DNA of 64,000 nucleotides from Prescottella sp. R16 (GTDB lineage Bacteria > Actinomycetota > Actinomycetes > Mycobacteriales > Mycobacteriaceae), in contig NZ_CP130943.1 in NCBI RefSeq assembly GCF_030656875.1, positions 2,542,001 to 2,606,000 of the forward strand, read 5' to 3'. A program made the position numbers and the translations under genes. The notes below the pieces were generated by a model. The model saw only the letters and a list, made by a program, of their open reading frames with translations. It was not told the origin of the DNA and did not search any database. Position 1 is the first letter of the stretch, and each line of letters starts with the position of its first letter. Of this stretch, positions 25,199 to 34,494 are shown piece after piece.

Positions 25199-25224
25199 GT
25201 TTCCCGGGGCGGCGGCGCGGGTAT
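25199..25224 (+). promoter_or_regulatory. SigF-type promoter
   Basis: GTTT (25199-25202), a 16-base spacer and GGGTAT (25219-25224): a perfect match to the mycobacterial SigF consensus, 31 bases before the ATG of the small membrane protein at 25256. Confidence 0.8.
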
Positions 25225-25793: not shown

Positions 25794-25918
25794 GACGTCC
25801 TCCGGAAGGTCGGGGCGGACGGGGAGTTCGAACCTCGATGCCACCGTAACGCGGTCGGGCCCGAACAATCGACCCTGTCTCGTGGGACGCTGGTGACGAC
25901 ACCCCGGTGTGTCCAGGT

Positions 25919-25944
25919 GTTTGGAATCGGCCCGGACGGGGAAT
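25919..25944 (+). promoter_or_regulatory. SigF-type promoter of rsbW-sigF
   Basis: GTTT (25919-25922), a 16-base spacer and GGGAAT (25939-25944), one mismatch from GGGTAT. It lies 64 bases before the rsbW ATG and implies SigF autoregulation. The 215 bases from 25794 to 26008 hold this promoter and no gene. Confidence 0.72.
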
Positions 25945-26008
25945 CTCTGCAGCGCGGGCAGCGACGATCGGGCGCTGCGACGGAGACGACGGAGTCCAGC
26001 GAGGAGTC

Positions 26009-26446
26009 ATGACGCGAACCTGCGCAACCACGACACGGCCGGACGAACTCGACCCGGTTCTCGAGCTTCGGGCGCCGGCGGACCCCGTGCACCTGGGCCC
26101 GCTGCGCGGGGTCGCGACGGCACTGGCCGGCCAGTGCAACATGGATCTCGACCGGCTGGCCGACCTCCGGCTCGCCGTCGACGAGACGTGCAGCACGCTG
26201 CTGCGGATCGCGCTTCCCGGCACCGACATCGTCTGCCGGTTCCGGTTGTCCCCCGACTCGTTCCGGCTCGCGGCCGCCGTCTCGGCGCCACCGGAGGAGG
26301 CGGACGCCCCGGTGGAACGGAAGTTCGGCTGGCACGTCCTGCGCACGCTCACCGACGAACTCGAGATCACCCGCGGTCCGGGAGCCGGCCCCGACCGGAC
26401 GGCCGTCACGATCGCGTTCACCATGTTCGGCGGGGACGCCGTGTGA
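26009..26446 (+). CDS. rsbW: Anti-sigma-F factor RsbW (UsfX)
   Basis: 145-residue GHKL-type ATPase-fold protein that binds SigF and keeps it from RNA polymerase. The helix DLRLAVDETCSTLLRIALP and the stretch KFGWHVLRTLTDELE correspond to mycobacterial UsfX as I remember it. The usual Asn of the ATP-binding N-box is replaced by Thr63 (E59-T-C-S-T63), so kinase activity is doubtful. ATG 26009 has GAGGAG upstream. The GTGA overlap with sigF shows coupling. A SigF-type promoter precedes the pair. Confidence 0.92.
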   Translation: MTRTCATTTRPDELDPVLELRAPADPVHLGPLRGVATALAGQCNMDLDRLADLRLAVDETCSTLLRIALPGTDIVCRFRLSPDSFRLAAAVSAPPEEADAPVERKFGWHVLRTLTDELEITRGPGAGPDRTAVTIAFTMFGGDAV

Positions 26447-27219
26447 GCCGCCGCACCGTCGACCGATCCGACGAATACAGCGACGTGTTACCGATGTTCA
26501 CGACGTTGCGTTCACTCGGGTCCGACGATCCGGCGCACGCCGAGGTGCGGCAGGCCATCATCACCCGGTGCCTGCCGCTGGCCGAGCACATCGCCCAGCG
26601 GTTCGACCGCCGCGGCGAACCGTTCGACGATCTGCTCCAGGTGGCGAGCCTGGGCCTGGTCAATGCCGTCGACCGCTTCGATGCCGACCGCGGCTGCGAG
26701 TTCCTCGCGTTCGCGGTTCCCACCATCATGGGCGAGGTGCGTCGGCACTTCCGGGACACCGGGTGGGCAGTGCGGGTTCCGCGGCGGCTCAAAGAACTCC
26801 ACCTCGAGATCACCAAGTCCGCCGCGGCCCTGTCCCAGCGGTTGGGGCGCTCGCCGACCACCCACGAGATCGCCGTCGACCTCGACGTCGCCGACGACGA
26901 CGTCGTGCAGGGCCTGCAGGCCGCGACCGGCTACCACACCCTGTCGGTCGACGCGGCCGCCGGCGGCACCGATACCGGTGCGACCCTCGCCGACGTGCTC
27001 GGGGAACGCGACGGCGACCTGGCCGGGGTCGAGGACCACGAGACGATCCGGGTACTCCTCGGGACGCTGCCGGCGCGGGAGCGCACCGTCCTGCTCCTGC
27101 GGTTCTTCGGCGACCAGACCCAGTCGCAGATCGCCGAACGCATCGGCGTCTCGCAGATGCACGTGTCCCGCATTCTGTCCGACACCCTTGCCAGGCTCCG
27201 GGAGCAGGCCGAACAGTGA
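26443..27219 (+). CDS. sigF: Alternative RNA polymerase sigma factor SigF
   Basis: 258-residue SigF/SigB/SigG-family group 3 sigma factor. Region 2 has LLQVASLGLVNAVDRFD and FLAFAVPTIMGEVRRHFRD, region 3 has WAVRVPRRLKELHLEI, and region 4 the helix-turn-helix TQSQIAERIGVSQMHVSRIL. GTG 26443 lies within the rsbW stop. At least four further SigF-type promoters nearby (25.2, 29.4, 29.9, 33.6 kb) make a local regulon likely. Role inferred from family: stationary-phase and envelope stress. Confidence 0.95.
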   Translation: MSRRTVDRSDEYSDVLPMFTTLRSLGSDDPAHAEVRQAIITRCLPLAEHIAQRFDRRGEPFDDLLQVASLGLVNAVDRFDADRGCEFLAFAVPTIMGEVRRHFRDTGWAVRVPRRLKELHLEITKSAAALSQRLGRSPTTHEIAVDLDVADDDVVQGLQAATGYHTLSVDAAAGGTDTGATLADVLGERDGDLAGVEDHETIRVLLGTLPARERTVLLLRFFGDQTQSQIAERIGVSQMHVSRILSDTLARLREQAEQ

Positions 27220-27366: not shown

Positions 27367-27795
27367 GTGTCCCACCATTTCCTCTCCACCATTCCGCGTG
27401 TCGACGACGTCTCGGACGCCCCGGACTCTTCGGGCCGGCCCGGTCGTCCGGTGTCGACGGCGGCGGTGATCGTGGAGTCCGCCCCGAACCTCGACATGAA
27501 CACCGTCGACGATTTCCGTCACGCCTACCGGGCCGCGTTCGACGCCCTCACCGAACGCGGGGTCACTGCCGGGGACGTCGTCGTCCTCGACCTGACCCAC
27601 ACCGATTTCGTCAGTGTCGACGCCGCGCGTGCGCTGGCCGAGGCACACGATCTGGCCGCGCACCGCGGCATCGAGTTCGCTCTCGTGGCGGTGACACGCG
27701 GCATCGAACGTGCCCTGACCGTCACCGGGGGCGACCGCCTCCTGCCGTGCCATCGCACCGTCGATGCGGCGATCGCCTACACGGGTGCACAGTGA
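27367..27795 (+). CDS. STAS-domain protein, putative anti-anti-sigma factor
   Basis: 142 residues: a disordered N-terminus to about residue 32, then a STAS fold (VVVLDLTHTDFVSVDAARALAEA). Typical anti-anti-sigma factors bind the RsbW-type partner and are inactivated by phosphorylation of a Ser in a DSSG-like motif. Here that motif reads S83-V-D85-A, so Asp85 takes the place of the phospho-accepting Ser, which may mimic the phosphorylated state. The start GTG has GGAGG 6 bases upstream. The end overlaps cinA (GTGA). Likely acts on the neighbouring RsbW-SigF switch, but this is not proven. Confidence 0.82.
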   Translation: MSHHFLSTIPRVDDVSDAPDSSGRPGRPVSTAAVIVESAPNLDMNTVDDFRHAYRAAFDALTERGVTAGDVVVLDLTHTDFVSVDAARALAEAHDLAAHRGIEFALVAVTRGIERALTVTGGDRLLPCHRTVDAAIAYTGAQ

Positions 27796-28239: not shown

Positions 28240-29418
28240 TCAGGGCTCGAACAGGATCTTGACCGCGCCGTCCTGCTTCTTCTGGAACATCTCGTACGCG
28301 TGCGGGGCGTCGGCCAGCGGCAGGCGGTGCGTGGCGAACGTGTCGACACCGAGTGGGTCGTCGTCGGTGAGCAGCGGCAGGATCTCGCCCGCCCACCGCT
28401 TGACGTTCGCCTGCCCCATCCGGAGCCGGATCTGCTTGTCGAACATCGTGAACATCGGCAACGGATCGAGCGCGCCACCGTAGACGCCGACGATCGAGAC
28501 CGTGCCGCCGCGGCGGACGATCTCGATCGCCGCGTTCAGTGCCGCGAGCCGGTCGATGCCGGCGTGGGTGAACAACGGTCCGGCGATTGCGTCCGGCAAC
28601 AGGCCGGTCGCCTGCTGGACCACCCTCGAACCGGGGGAACCGTGGGCTTCCATTCCCACCGCGTCGATGACGGCGTCGGTGCCACGGCCGTCCGTGAGAT
28701 CCCGGATCGCGGCGGCGAGGTCGTCGTGCTCGCGCAGGTCGAGAACCTCGATGCCACGGTCCCGCAGCCGGGCCAGCCGCTCCGGCACCAGATCGACCCC
28801 GACCACCCGGACCCCGCGGTGGGCGGCGATACGGGCCGCCATGTCGCCGATCGGACCGAGCCCCAGGACGGTCAACGACTCGCCCTCTCGGACGTGGGCG
28901 TACTCGACGGCCTGCCACGCCGTGGGCAGGACATCGGACAGGTAGACGAACCGGTCGTCGGGCGGGCCGTCGGGCACCGCGATGTGCGTGAAGTCGGCGT
29001 GCGGAACCCGCAGGTACTCGGCTTGCGCGCCGGGTACCGCGCCGTACAGTTTCGAGTAGCCGAACAGGGCCGCCCCGGTGCCCTGCTCCCGCACCTGCGT
29101 CGTTTCGCACTGGGTCGGCATGCCCTGCCCGCACATCCAGCAGTGCCCGCACGCGATCTGGAACGGCACCACCACGCGGTCCCCGACCGCGAGTCCGTCG
29201 ATCTCGCTGCCGACCTCCTCCACGATGCCCATCGGCTCGTGCCCCAGGATGTCGCCCGGATTCATGAACGGCCCCAGTAGTTCGTACAGGTGCAGATCCG
29301 ACCCGCACAGATTGGTGGTCGTCAATCGCACGATCGCGTCGGTGGGCTGCTCGATCCGGGGGTCCGGGACGGTGTCGACGCCCACTCGACGCTTGCCCTG
29401 CCATGTCACCGCCTTCAC
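28240..29418 (-). CDS. Zinc-dependent alcohol dehydrogenase (formaldehyde dehydrogenase-like)
   Basis: 392-residue MDR-family enzyme. Catalytic zinc ligands are in CGSDLH and GHEPMG. A four-Cys-type structural zinc loop begins CGHCWMCGQGMPTQC. The coenzyme fold VLGLGPIGDMAARI and the long insert (VGMEAHGSPGSR) resemble glutathione-independent formaldehyde dehydrogenases. The GTG at 29418 has GAGGAG 6 bases upstream, and the frame extending to 29679 is unsupported. A perfect SigF-type promoter lies 34 bases upstream, so it is probably stress-induced. The substrate is not certain. Confidence 0.92.
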   Translation of the reverse strand: MKAVTWQGKRRVGVDTVPDPRIEQPTDAIVRLTTTNLCGSDLHLYELLGPFMNPGDILGHEPMGIVEEVGSEIDGLAVGDRVVVPFQIACGHCWMCGQGMPTQCETTQVREQGTGAALFGYSKLYGAVPGAQAEYLRVPHADFTHIAVPDGPPDDRFVYLSDVLPTAWQAVEYAHVREGESLTVLGLGPIGDMAARIAAHRGVRVVGVDLVPERLARLRDRGIEVLDLREHDDLAAAIRDLTDGRGTDAVIDAVGMEAHGSPGSRVVQQATGLLPDAIAGPLFTHAGIDRLAALNAAIEIVRRGGTVSIVGVYGGALDPLPMFTMFDKQIRLRMGQANVKRWAGEILPLLTDDDPLGVDTFATHRLPLADAPHAYEMFQKKQDGAVKILFEP

Positions 29419-29451: not shown

Positions 29452-29476
29452 ATACCCTCCGATTCCCGCCGCAAAC
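29452..29476 (-). promoter_or_regulatory. SigF-type promoter of the zinc dehydrogenase
   Basis: On the minus strand GTTT (29476-29473), a 15-base spacer and GGGTAT (29457-29452), directed at the GTG at 29418. Confidence 0.78.
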
Positions 29477-29551: not shown

Positions 29552-29848
29552 ATGGACAACACACATCCCTCGCAGGATCCCCGCGATCTCGCGCACACCA
29601 CCCGGGAGCATCCCGGCGAAGCGATCGCCGATTCCCGCAACTGGCCCGGATACGCGCTGATCGGTATCGCGATCGTCACCCTCGGCCTGACCTTGGTGGC
29701 CGCCGGCTACGGTTTCGCCGGCTGGGCTTGGATAGCCGGAATCGCCTGCGCGGCAAGTCTTGTCGTCGGAACGCTGCTCGTACTGGCGGAGCATCGCCGG
29801 GTGAAGCGTCTCGACGAGGCCGGGTTGACCGACCAGCGGGGACACTGA
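29552..29848 (+). CDS. UsfY-like small membrane protein
   Basis: 98 residues. The N-terminal HTTREHPGEAIADSRNWPGY is followed by two membrane helices (about 40-58 and 62-80) and a basic C-tail (AEHRRVKRLDE). Its pattern resembles UsfY, the protein encoded beside usfX-sigF in mycobacteria, and the window holds a paralogue at 55904-56191. The start ATG has GGGAGG 6 bases upstream. No clear SigF promoter directly upstream. Function unknown. Confidence 0.68.
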   Translation: MDNTHPSQDPRDLAHTTREHPGEAIADSRNWPGYALIGIAIVTLGLTLVAAGYGFAGWAWIAGIACAASLVVGTLLVLAEHRRVKRLDEAGLTDQRGH

Positions 29849-29874: not shown

Positions 29875-29900
29875 GTTTGCGATCTCCCCGCCTCGGGTAT
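29875..29900 (+). promoter_or_regulatory. SigF-type promoter of the methyltransferase/CDGSH/HO-like operon
   Basis: GTTT (29875-29878), a 16-base spacer and GGGTAT (29895-29900): a perfect match, 44 bases before the first small ORF at 29945. Confidence 0.82.
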
Positions 29901-29944
29901 CCGGTCGCCGCAACTGCTCCGCACTCGGAAGGACTGTGGTGACC

Positions 29945-30040
29945 ATGGCGGACGAGAGCGAGTCGGGACCGGTGGAAGGCATCGAGGGCGTGAAGGCCGA
30001 GGCCGACGAGGCCCGCCAGCGCGCCGAGCAGGGCGACTGA
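29945..30040 (+). CDS. Very small acidic protein, 31 residues
   Basis: ATG to TGA, 31 residues rich in Glu, Ala and Gly (MADESESGPVEGIEGVKAEA to QGD) and predicted to form a charged helix. It slightly recalls the start of CsbD-like stress proteins (GPVEGIEGVK). It lies directly behind a perfect SigF promoter and 22 bases ahead of a methyltransferase. GGAAGGA precedes the start by about 12 bases, so initiation signals are moderate. It may be a real leader gene or simply leader RNA. Confidence 0.5.
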   Translation: MADESESGPVEGIEGVKAEADEARQRAEQGD

Positions 30041-30062
30041 GGACCGGGACGCGGGTCGCGCC

Positions 30063-30767
30063 ATGGTGATCAGACGACTCGAGGACGCTACCGACCGACC
30101 GGCCGTACGTGTTCCGCCCCGATTGTGGCGACTGCCGGGCGTGTACGCGCCCCAGTCGGACAGCTACCTTCTCGCGCGCACCTTGTCCTCCGAGCCGCGG
30201 GCCGTCGACGCGAGGATCCTCGACATCGGGGCGGGAACGGGACTGCTGTCCGTATACGCGGCTCTTGCCGGGGCCGCGCACGTGACGGCCGTCGACGTAC
30301 ATCGCCGGTCGCTGCTCAACACCCGGCTGAATGCGGCACTCAACCGCGTGCGGGTGCGGACCGTACACGGCGACCTCACCGAGGCGTTGCCGGGTGCCCG
30401 GTTCGACGTGGTGGTGTCCAACCCGCCCTACGTCCCGGCGCCGGACGACGTCCTTCCCCGCACGGGGCTGGGACGCTGCTGGGATGCCGGTCGGGACGGG
30501 CGCGCCTACCTGGACCGCATCTGCCGTGATGCCGCGGACCTGTTGACGCCCGGCGGAGTGCTGCTGCTGTTGCAGTCGGCCGTGTGCGGGGTGGATCGGA
30601 CCCGGGCCATGCTCGAGGCCCGGGACCTCGACGTGACGATCGCCGCCACCGCCCGCATCCCGTTCGGTCCGGTCCTCACCGAGCGGGCCGACATGCTCCG
30701 GAAGCGTGGCATGCTCGCACCGGACGCCGACCGCGAAGAACTCGTCGTGTTCCGGGCGGCATCATGA
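30063..30767 (+). CDS. Class I SAM-dependent methyltransferase (HemK2-like)
   Basis: 234 residues. SAM-binding motif I DIGAGTG at 54-60 and motif IV NPPY at 120-123, the latter typical of HemK/PrmC-type enzymes that methylate glutamine amides or nucleobase nitrogens. The N-terminal VYAPQSDSYLLARTL resembles HemK2. The substrate is unknown. The ATGA overlap with the CDGSH gene and the next GTGA overlap show a tightly coupled three-gene operon behind a SigF promoter. Confidence 0.88.
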   Translation: MVIRRLEDATDRPAVRVPPRLWRLPGVYAPQSDSYLLARTLSSEPRAVDARILDIGAGTGLLSVYAALAGAAHVTAVDVHRRSLLNTRLNAALNRVRVRTVHGDLTEALPGARFDVVVSNPPYVPAPDDVLPRTGLGRCWDAGRDGRAYLDRICRDAADLLTPGGVLLLLQSAVCGVDRTRAMLEARDLDVTIAATARIPFGPVLTERADMLRKRGMLAPDADREELVVFRAAS

Positions 30768-30994
30768 CTGCGGACCCCGACGTGATCGTCGGGACGGAGG
30801 CGTCGATCACGGTCTGCCCCGACGGCCCGCTGCTGGTGCGCGGCCCCGTCACGATCGTCGACGGGGCGGGCCGCTCGATCACCCCACCGAGCCGCATGTG
30901 CGCGCTGTGCCGGTGCGGGCGCACGTCGCGGACACCGTTCTGCGACGGCACCCACAAGAAGCGCAAGCGTGTCTCCCCGGCCGAGGCGTCGTGA
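30764..30994 (+). CDS. CDGSH iron-sulfur protein
   Basis: 76 residues. The CDGSH motif supplies Cys49, Cys51, Cys60 and His64 (CRC, then FCDGTH), which ligate a redox-active 2Fe-2S cluster as in mitoNEET-like proteins. A small N-terminal beta region (VRGPVTIVDGAG) precedes it. Coupled on both sides to the methyltransferase and the heme-oxygenase-like gene. It is a plausible electron donor to the latter, but this is inference. Confidence 0.93.
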   Translation: MTADPDVIVGTEASITVCPDGPLLVRGPVTIVDGAGRSITPPSRMCALCRCGRTSRTPFCDGTHKKRKRVSPAEAS

Positions 30995-32043
30995 CCGCGC
31001 TGCGACACCCGAGCAGGCATCCGCGCACGATCGAGCCGATGCCGGAGCCTCAGGCTCGGGGCCCGCTCAGCGCGGCCGTGCTCGATGTCGTGACCGGCCG
31101 TTCCCTCCCCCGCGAGTTCCCGGCCCCTCCCCTGCCCGACGCCCCCGACGTCCTCACGGACGACGATCTCCAGTTGACACTCACGGTGCTGTACGAACTG
31201 CATCTGGCCGGCATCGTGGGTGTCGACGCGTCCTGGGAGTGGGATCCGGCGCTCCTGGCGTTGCGCCGGCGACTCGAAGCGGTGTTCGACGGTGCACTGC
31301 ACGCACTTTCCCACTCCGCGGTCACCACCGCCCGCACCGAATTCGGCGACGATGTGGCGGCCGCCCTGTGGGACATGACCGCCCCCACCACGACGCCGGG
31401 CCTGTCCGGGTTCCTCGCGCACGACGCGGACCCGGAACAGTTCCGGGAGTTCCTCGTCCACCGCTCCCTCAACCAGCTGCGGGAAGCCGACGTGCACACG
31501 TGGGGCATCCCACGCCTGCAGGGTCCACCGAAGGCGGCCCTGGTGGAGATCCAGTCCGACGAGTACGGGGGTGGACGCTACGAGCACATGCATGCGCGGT
31601 TGTTCGCGAACACGATGCGTGCGCTCGGCCTGTCGCCGGGCTACGCCCATTATGTCGACGCGACGCCCGCCGTCACCCTGTCCTCGTTGAATGCCTTGTC
31701 GTACTTCGGTTTCCACCGCCGTCTCCTGCCCGCACTGATCGGGCACCTGTGCGCGGTGGAGACCACGTCGGCGCTGCCGGCGAAGAAGATCGCGGCGGGA
31801 CTGTCGCGGCTCGGGTACGGCTCCGATGCGACGACGTTCTTCGACGTCCACGTCGAGGCGGACTCCGCGCACGAGCAGATCGCCGTCCGGGAACTGGCGG
31901 GCGGCTTCGTCGCCGGCGCCCCGGACAGCCTCGACGGCGTCCTGTTCGGCGCCGCCACCTGCCTGGGCCTCGACGATCTGGTGGGCGAGCACATGCTCCG
32001 GTCGTGGTCCGGGAGCGAAAGCTCACTACGCCGGCCGCTGTGA
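30991..32043 (+). CDS. Iron-containing redox enzyme, heme-oxygenase-like diiron (HDO) family
   Basis: 350 residues, mostly helical, with the pattern of heme-oxygenase-like diiron oxidases. Candidate metal ligands are Glu187 and Glu191 (VEIQSDEYGGG), His201 (YEHMHA), Glu257 (CAVETTS), and His287, Asp291 and His294 (HVEADSAHEQ). Relatives in natural-product pathways oxidise amines, fatty acids or amino acids, and the substrate here is unknown. GTGA overlap with the CDGSH gene. The stop abuts the convergent F420-type gene. An in-frame ATG at codon 17 is an alternative start. Confidence 0.82.
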   Translation: MTALRHPSRHPRTIEPMPEPQARGPLSAAVLDVVTGRSLPREFPAPPLPDAPDVLTDDDLQLTLTVLYELHLAGIVGVDASWEWDPALLALRRRLEAVFDGALHALSHSAVTTARTEFGDDVAAALWDMTAPTTTPGLSGFLAHDADPEQFREFLVHRSLNQLREADVHTWGIPRLQGPPKAALVEIQSDEYGGGRYEHMHARLFANTMRALGLSPGYAHYVDATPAVTLSSLNALSYFGFHRRLLPALIGHLCAVETTSALPAKKIAAGLSRLGYGSDATTFFDVHVEADSAHEQIAVRELAGGFVAGAPDSLDGVLFGAATCLGLDDLVGEHMLRSWSGSESSLRRPL

Positions 32044-33600: not shown

Positions 33601-34428
33601 TCAGGCCGCGTCGCCCTGGGACCGCCCCCGCATGCGCTGCAGCGACTGCCGCAGGATGCGGGACACCTGCATCTGGGACAAACCGACGACCTTCGCAATC
33701 TCCGACTGCGTCAGGTCGTGGAAGTATCTGAGGCCCACGATCTTCCGATCACGCGAACTCAGCTTCGACAGGAGCCACCGCAAGGTCTGGCTGCAGTCGA
33801 TCCGATCGAATCCGCTGTCCAGTTCCCCGATCCCGTCGAGGAGTGTCCGGTCCTCCGTGACCGGCCCGTCGAGCGAACTGCTGGTATAGGCCTGTCCGGC
33901 CAGTGCGGCCTCCGCCGCCCCGGCCCGGTCACATCCCACGGCGGACGCCACCTCGGCCGCGTCGGGTTCGCGGTGGAGTTCCTGCCTGATCCGGTCGGCC
34001 TCCCGTACCGACGCGAGATGCAGTTCCTGCAGCGACCGCGGCACCCGGACCGCCCACGTGTGGTCGCGGAAGTAGCGCCGCAACTCTCCGCGCATCGATG
34101 TCACGGCGTACGCCACGAAGTCGGTGCCGCGTCCGGGGTCGAACCGGTGCACTGCCGCGACCAGTGCAGTGGCCGCCACCTGTTCGAGGTCGTCGAGGGG
34201 GACTCCTCGATCCCGGTAGCGGCGCGCCACCCGGCGGGCGATCGGGAGGCAGTCCACGCAGACCGTCTCCACGCAGCGCCGGCGCCGCTCCCACTCCACC
34301 GTGGGGTCGTTGAACTCGGCTATCGCCGCCGCGAGATGTTCGCGTAACAGCACGTCGTCCCGGGACGGGGACGGGGACGAGCACGATTCGGATTCCCTGC
34401 CTTCGATCAGGCCTTCGGACAGCACCAT
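33601..34428 (-). CDS. SigF/SigB-family RNA polymerase sigma factor (second copy)
   Basis: About 275 residues. Region 2 (LEQVAATALVAAVHRFDPGRGTDF), region 3 (WAVRVPRSLQELHLASV) and region 4 (LTQSEIAKVVGLSQMQVSRILRQSL) mark a group 3 stress sigma factor related to, but distinct from, SigF at 26.4 kb. No anti-sigma gene is adjacent. ATG 34428 has AAGGTG 9 bases upstream. Two further in-frame starts (34437, 34455) are possible. A weaker SigF-like promoter lies 66 bases upstream, suggesting a sigma cascade. Confidence 0.88.
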   Translation of the reverse strand: MVLSEGLIEGRESESCSSPSPSRDDVLLREHLAAAIAEFNDPTVEWERRRRCVETVCVDCLPIARRVARRYRDRGVPLDDLEQVAATALVAAVHRFDPGRGTDFVAYAVTSMRGELRRYFRDHTWAVRVPRSLQELHLASVREADRIRQELHREPDAAEVASAVGCDRAGAAEAALAGQAYTSSSLDGPVTEDRTLLDGIGELDSGFDRIDCSQTLRWLLSKLSSRDRKIVGLRYFHDLTQSEIAKVVGLSQMQVSRILRQSLQRMRGRSQGDAA

Positions 34429-34494
34429 GGAGCACATCACCTTCGATCCCGACACCCGATCACCGGACCGGGCTACGTTCAGAGGGCCACTGCA

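Follow-up and report, generated by a model that had tools for sequence, protein, structure and literature searches.

What could a bacterium gain from placing a methyltransferase, a small iron-sulfur protein and a predicted oxygen-activating enzyme behind one stress-type promoter? This question is raised by a gene group of Prescottella sp. R16 (genome G000, 4.57 Mb), located in a stretch of 64,000 nucleotides (C1:2542001-2606000, hereafter the window), in which an earlier note made from the sequence had seen a SigF-driven operon of a HemK2-like methyltransferase (MT), a CDGSH protein (CDGSH) and a haem-oxygenase-like diiron oxidase/oxygenase (HDO). Below, G and a number designate a genome, L and a number a locus stretch, and HDO, CDGSH and MT the three module genes. 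The module is real and broadly conserved and, as judged from the DNA, it is stress-controlled in the window and in many relatives. It represents a gene group of many actinobacteria, in which a probable O2-using diiron enzyme is paired with a small iron-sulfur protein of its own, joined by an MT in some lineages.

The promoter is of the SigF type, GTTT-N16-GGGTAT (GTTTGCGATCTCCCCGCCTCGGGTAT), at 29875-29900 on the + strand, and matches the consensus pattern as the earlier note had stated; the window contains four matches to the pattern GTTT-N15-17-GGGTAT, where 100 shuffles gave 0.02 on average, the further boxes being found at 25199 (+), 29452-29476 (-) and 33563 (-). Downstream on the + strand, MT (30063-30767) encodes an S-adenosylmethionine-dependent methyltransferase of the HemK2/MTQ2 family with an NPPY motif, CDGSH (30764-30994) a 76-amino-acid, single-CDGSH protein of the NEET type with a predicted [2Fe-2S] cluster, and HDO (30991-32043) the predicted haem-oxygenase-like diiron enzyme. 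These three identities are borne out by family scores above the respective cut-offs: 106.2 bits for TIGR00537 (cut-off 87), 62.1 bits for PF09360 (cut-off 29.5) and 176.7 bits for PF14518 (cut-off 28.9). The ATGA overlap between MT and CDGSH (30764-30767) and the GTGA overlap between CDGSH and HDO (30991-30994) are both present in the DNA, but the latter may not be used, because the conserved family N-terminus, MPxPxxRGPLS, corresponds to M17 of the window HDO, that is to ATG 31039. The database copy P0001 (334 amino acids) also begins at this codon, which is the likely start of HDO; the metal ligands are intact with either start.

The association of the three genes, central to the earlier proposal, is strong for HDO and CDGSH, whereas MT takes part in it only in some lineages. 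In 80 named actinobacterial loci, the best 80 of 526, selected by HDO similarity only, CDGSH lies within 1.5 kb of HDO in 75 and at 1.8 kb in one more, and three (L032, L038 and L088) of the four stretches without it end less than 2 kb downstream of HDO. With 19 G-regions and the window added, CDGSH is present in 94 of 100 loci, 90 times within 1.5 kb of HDO, and in all relative orientations: HDO precedes CDGSH on one strand in 51 loci and follows it in 11, while 22 pairs are convergent and 10 divergent. MT was rejected as a core member on the same counts, being present in 16 of the 100 stretches, a count that overlooks any copy lying outside the stretch. The lineages in which MT was seen are the family of the window, a second family of its order, and Thermoleophilia or unplaced Actinobacteria (three contigs). 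HDO with CDGSH thus forms the conserved unit, to which MT is added only in these lineages. No fusion of HDO with CDGSH or MT was found among 120 listed of 2468 HDO homologues. A glycosyltransferase-2-like gene accompanies HDO in 30 of the 80 named loci (L031, L033, L049, L054, L067, L070 and others); in 19 of these 30, and in 20 of the 100 loci, it separates HDO from CDGSH, a position which suggests an organic product. The one member scanned scored 23.9 bits with PF00535 (cut-off 23.3).

The association extends to the whole genomes of 41 relatives, in which matches were considered strong at E <=3e-48 for HDO, at least 67 bits for CDGSH and at least 190 bits for MT; since the models for CDGSH and MT derive from members linked to HDO, these thresholds lean towards such members. 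Strong matches are nested, HDO being found in 20 relatives, CDGSH in 19 and MT in 15, and neither CDGSH nor MT reaches this strength in a genome without HDO (Fisher tests of 8e-11 for CDGSH and 2.4e-7 for MT, uncorrected for phylogeny). G028 is the sole HDO-containing relative devoid of a strong CDGSH, and G032, with only an HDO paralogue at 1e-9, was counted among the genomes lacking HDO. Weaker matches occur in relatives without HDO, namely a CDGSH of 37 bits in G019 and other methyltransferases of up to 81 bits. The genes can also be unlinked: G018 carries HDO on contig C4 and CDGSH together with MT on C1, and MT lies on another contig in G037 and about 50 and 60 kb away in G006 and G010, respectively. 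Among 119 genomes of the phylum, 24 contain HDO and 18 a CDGSH of at least 71 bits, 17 of these 18 having HDO as well; HDO genomes without a CDGSH of that score are G680, G719, G740, G761, G702, G696 and G710. When any CDGSH match at E <=1e-4 is accepted, 20 of the 24 genomes with HDO are positive, versus 21 of the 95 without. That HDO, CDGSH and MT act together is well supported by this co-occurrence.

Control by SigF, also part of the earlier proposal, is backed by boxes in other loci and by published data, but the arrangement as one operon is not essential. In a scan of 250 bases upstream of module genes, relaxed SigF-type boxes were found in 35 of 158 regions (5.7 expected) and strict ones in 7 (1.0 expected); the window and the same-genus locus L105 are uncounted, the gene of an MBP-1 protein (microaggregate-binding protein 1) lying between box and MT. 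Separate boxes precede HDO and CDGSH in five of seven Micromonospora loci (L048, L050, L052, L068 and L095; not L097 and L100). SigF control is not universal, since in seven loci of the same genus (L106-L112) a search up to 250 bases from the first module gene gave no SigF box in sense orientation. The relative genus g45, probably Mycobacterium, was sampled through 30 hand-picked, mostly large genomes, of which 28 have HDO and 20 loci were fetched. In all 20, HDO is convergent to MT-CDGSH, with boxes before MT in 19 and before HDO in 13 (by eye, within about 150 bases); a single operon is therefore dispensable, HDO being convergent and in 13 cases equipped with its own SigF-type box.

In M. 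smegmatis, sigF deletion strongly lowers the expression of MSMEG_1769 (UsfY), 1770, 1771 (“methylase, putative”), 1772 and 1773, with log2 values of -3.3 to -6.4 (PMC4694148, Table 1), and the SigF boxes of MSMEG_1770, 1771 and 1773 are printed in PMC5445863. The g45 locus L172 (genome G480) has the order UsfY, CsbD-like, MT, CDGSH, HDO, which parallels that of MSMEG_1769-1773 (UsfY, a small protein, the methylase and two further genes); its boxes share 20/25, 19/25 and 21/26 bases with those printed for MSMEG_1773, 1771 and 1770, and its box-to-start spacings are 13 and 31 bases (by eye) against 11 and 29 in print. From gene order, boxes and leader lengths, MSMEG_1771 is very likely MT, 1772 CDGSH and 1773 HDO. 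The exact 32-base MSMEG_1773 promoter was found in 0 of 401 family genomes and 0 of 297 g45 genomes; as this search did not find M. smegmatis itself, the assignment rests on L172.

The candidate metal ligands of HDO, which the earlier note had mentioned, are present as an E-H-E-H-(D/E)-H motif (E165, E191, H201, H287, D291 and H294), invariant in 53/53 rows of an alignment (A4) for which some of the fetched loci were selected by hand, leaving out L016 (by choice), L076 (stop codon), L058, L071 and L083. E257 is likewise invariant and aligns with E281, the seventh ligand of SznF; a Glu also aligns in HrmI, which is called 3H/3C. The structure model (predicted local distance difference test score, pLDDT, of 95) adopts the haem-oxygenase/HDO fold, and the closest proteins by sequence profile and fold search are HrmI, SznF and RohS, all N-oxygenases, with 14-20% identity in the fold alignments. 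From fold and conserved ligands we infer that HDO binds a diiron centre. In G028 (L016/L119), HDO has lost two residues including the Asp ligand, a single case for which a sequencing error is possible; this genome lacks any CDGSH match at E <=1e-4 and has no strong MT match. G771 contains two HDO genes (C7:6539-7777 and C7:113156-114402), and a separate CDGSH lies some 0.1 kb from each of them.

The CDGSH protein of the window displays the motif CRCGRTSRTPFCDGTH with the 3Cys-1His pattern C-x-C-x8-C-x3-H, and the predicted ligands C49, C51, C60 and H64 are invariant in 13/13 rows of alignment A3 and also in A6, so that it is predicted to carry a [2Fe-2S] cluster. Away from the module, at C1:544399-544563, G000 carries another CDGSH gene that is more distant (58 bits). 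For MT, the motif N120-P-P-Y123 is invariant in 18/18 aligned rows, and the model (pLDDT 89.3) has N6AMT1/HEMK2 as nearest solved structure (9e-16), with additional matches to PrmC and to the aeronamide peptide N-methyltransferase AerE. In general, NPPY enzymes methylate planar nitrogens, and HemK2/MTQ2 protein methyltransferases the Gln of a class-1 release factor. Trm112 (PF03966) was uninformative as a marker of MT, as it is matched in 39 of the 41 relatives whether MT is present or not, and not in G021, which has MT. Besides the copy of the module, G013 holds another strongly matching MT (304 bits) at C1:2996532-2997152, far from the former.

These characteristics suggest a scheme in which the module would operate as a SigF-controlled stress unit. 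HDO would bind a diiron centre, activate O2 and oxidise a small molecule, with nitrogen as the most likely site of attack; its diferric centre would need re-reduction after each turnover, and the adjoining [2Fe-2S] CDGSH protein would be the dedicated electron carrier. Where present, MT would N-methylate the substrate or the product, and the outcome would be a protective metabolite or modification of the stress phase. For SznF, UndA and BesC, a reducing agent is described as required for multiple turnovers (PMC11363339), and MboA has a reported dedicated redox partner (PMC13185094). In streptozotocin synthesis, SznF is supplied by an arginine methyltransferase, methylation coming before N-oxygenation (PMC11705231). 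CDGSH, encoded beside most HDOs of the branch, is the natural candidate for the electron donor. To the whole scheme, that is stress-phase O2 chemistry by HDO, electron donation by CDGSH and action of MT on the same substrate or product, we assign a probability of about 0.5. We put forward its furthest extension only tentatively: CDGSH proteins would serve as dedicated electron donors to HDO N-oxygenases throughout a large branch in actinobacteria, and HDO and CDGSH, joined by an N-methyltransferase in mycobacteria and rhodococci, would make an N-oxidised and N-methylated protective metabolite of the SigF general stress response.

CDGSH proteins can donate iron or clusters. The one encoded here could alternatively be a maturation or repair factor, supplying iron or a cluster-derived iron pair, and not electrons, to a labile HDO site. 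The linkage of HDO and CDGSH fits either role, and the HDO without Asp ligand (G028, L119) belongs to a genome without CDGSH match up to the E value given above; however, free reductants or mediators suffice for turnover of other HDOs in vitro, where a dedicated partner is absent (PMC11363339, PMC13185094), and we regard iron supply as rather unlikely. The electrons of CDGSH could also feed an HDO acting as a protective oxidase, which would consume O2, peroxide or free iron and have no dedicated organic product. Such an option was considered among others for Acinetobacter DtpC, an HDO co-transcribed with katE that keeps H2O2 low in dried cells and depends on its HDO ligands (PMC13232832); a Mn-catalase-type cluster is found near seven loci and catalases are included in the SigF list of M. 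smegmatis (PMC4694148). Against it, the linked MT and the glycosyltransferase-like gene between HDO and CDGSH suggest an organic substrate, and this explanation seems to us doubtful. Iron supply to a labile site and DtpC-like oxidant defence are nevertheless the serious rivals of the proposed scheme.

Another possibility is that HDO modifies a protein, either itself, like CADD, or another one, MT then being a protein methyltransferase as its family name suggests; the family is indeed named for such enzymes and the MT model also matches a peptide N-methyltransferase, AerE, but we consider this improbable. Mere co-residence of HDO and CDGSH in a SigF stress island, with no functional link, could be evoked from the UsfY-like, MBP-1 and SigF genes around the window copy and from the DUF4383, GCS2 and Mn-catalase-type genes recurring near other loci. 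It is made very unlikely by the genome-wide nesting of strong matches, even unlinked, by the occurrence of the pair in all orientations and by the separate SigF-type boxes of HDO and CDGSH in the Micromonospora loci.

The 31-residue open reading frame (ORF) that the earlier note had counted as a component behind the promoter does exist (29945-30040, +), but it is no new component of the module. It has no Pfam or NCBIfam family match; in L105 (G003) the same place, between a SigF-like box and MT, is occupied by an 81-amino-acid ORF whose product scores 107.6 bits with the NCBIfam family MBP-1 (cut-off 80) and 37.4 with CsbD, below the cut-off of 40, while the g45 homologue at L172 scores 43.9 with CsbD. 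The window ORF aligns with residues 1-16 and the last 15 of the L105 protein, about 50 inner residues missing, and by this alignment is an internally shortened MBP-1/CsbD-like stress protein gene. Its interpretation as precursor of a ribosomally synthesised and post-translationally modified peptide for HDO and MT was rejected, full-length MBP-1 occupying the same place in G003. MSMEG_1770, neighbour of the M. smegmatis methylase gene, has its own SigF box (PMC5445863).

Directly upstream of the module lies a gene for a UsfY-like membrane protein (29552-29848, +; NCBIfam UsfY 70.8 bits, below the cut-off of 100), and the module is flanked on both sides by SigF-type sigma factors, one at 26443-27219 (+; NCBIfam SigF 373, cut-off 372) and a second at 33601-34455 (-; 238.7, below the same cut-off). 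The family scan added a HATPase anti-sigma-type protein (25907-26446) and a STAS protein (27367-27795); from their gene content, these surroundings are a SigF island. A zinc-type dehydrogenase (28240-29418, -) resembling, below cut-off, glutathione-independent formaldehyde dehydrogenase has its own SigF-pattern box (29452-29476, -), and a homologue also adjoins the module in G003. In four loci of the same genus (L006-L009), an ORF of 79-100 amino acids (cluster 16) separates CDGSH and HDO; its L006 member has no Pfam match. Recurrent genes near the pair (L010, L019 and L024-L103 neighbourhoods) are DUF4383 in 14 loci, GCS2 carboxylate-amine ligase in 9 and Mn-catalase in 7 (the latter two each including one relative), these clusters being named through one Pfam-scanned member each.

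According to the review PMC13108848, in which the term CDGSH does not occur, functional validation has been achieved for some dozen HDOs, most of them from natural-product pathways; MboAB may, in the view of its authors, be the first pair of an HDO and a dedicated redox partner (PMC13185094). The combination of HDO and CDGSH was not found in the titles and abstract beginnings of our search results. If the proposed scheme is true, a bacterial CDGSH protein gains a defined partner and O2-activating diiron chemistry becomes linked to stress survival in actinobacteria.

Compared with known systems, the window HDO shares its metal ligands and its fold over most of the protein with HrmI (including the N-terminal part), SznF and RohS. 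These are, however, enzymes of biosynthetic clusters and not SigF stress genes, distant at the 14-20% identity mentioned above; SznF carries a cupin domain unlike the window HDO, and a CDGSH partner is absent from the available descriptions of the three. MboA and MboB of mangotoxin synthesis similarly associate an HDO with a dedicated partner bearing a 2Fe-2S cluster, but MboB is a flavin and Fe2S2 NAD(P)H reductase (PMC13185094), whereas the 76-amino-acid CDGSH has no flavin domain. DtpC of Acinetobacter baumannii, likened here by its published description, is also an HDO tied to oxidative stress and survival; its partner gene is katE, and the term CDGSH is absent from the main text of PMC13232832. 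The nearest solved relatives of MT, N6AMT1/HEMK2 (MTQ2), share with it the NPPY motif and the following GR region; HEMK2 was solved with TRMT112, whereas G021 has MT but no Trm112 match. The motif C-x-C-x8-C-x3-H is common to CDGSH, bacterial 3tbm, human CISD3 and mitoNEET; unlike those NEET proteins, the window type stands beside HDO, often under SigF-type boxes. A counterpart of the whole module is MSMEG_1769-1773 of M. smegmatis, with a UsfY gene upstream, the gene order of L172 and similar boxes. Its genes are annotated only as methylase or hypothetical, and HDO is convergent in g45, unlike the co-directional genes of the window; as these equivalents are already known to be strongly SigF-dependent, the proposed scheme is directly testable in M. 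smegmatis.
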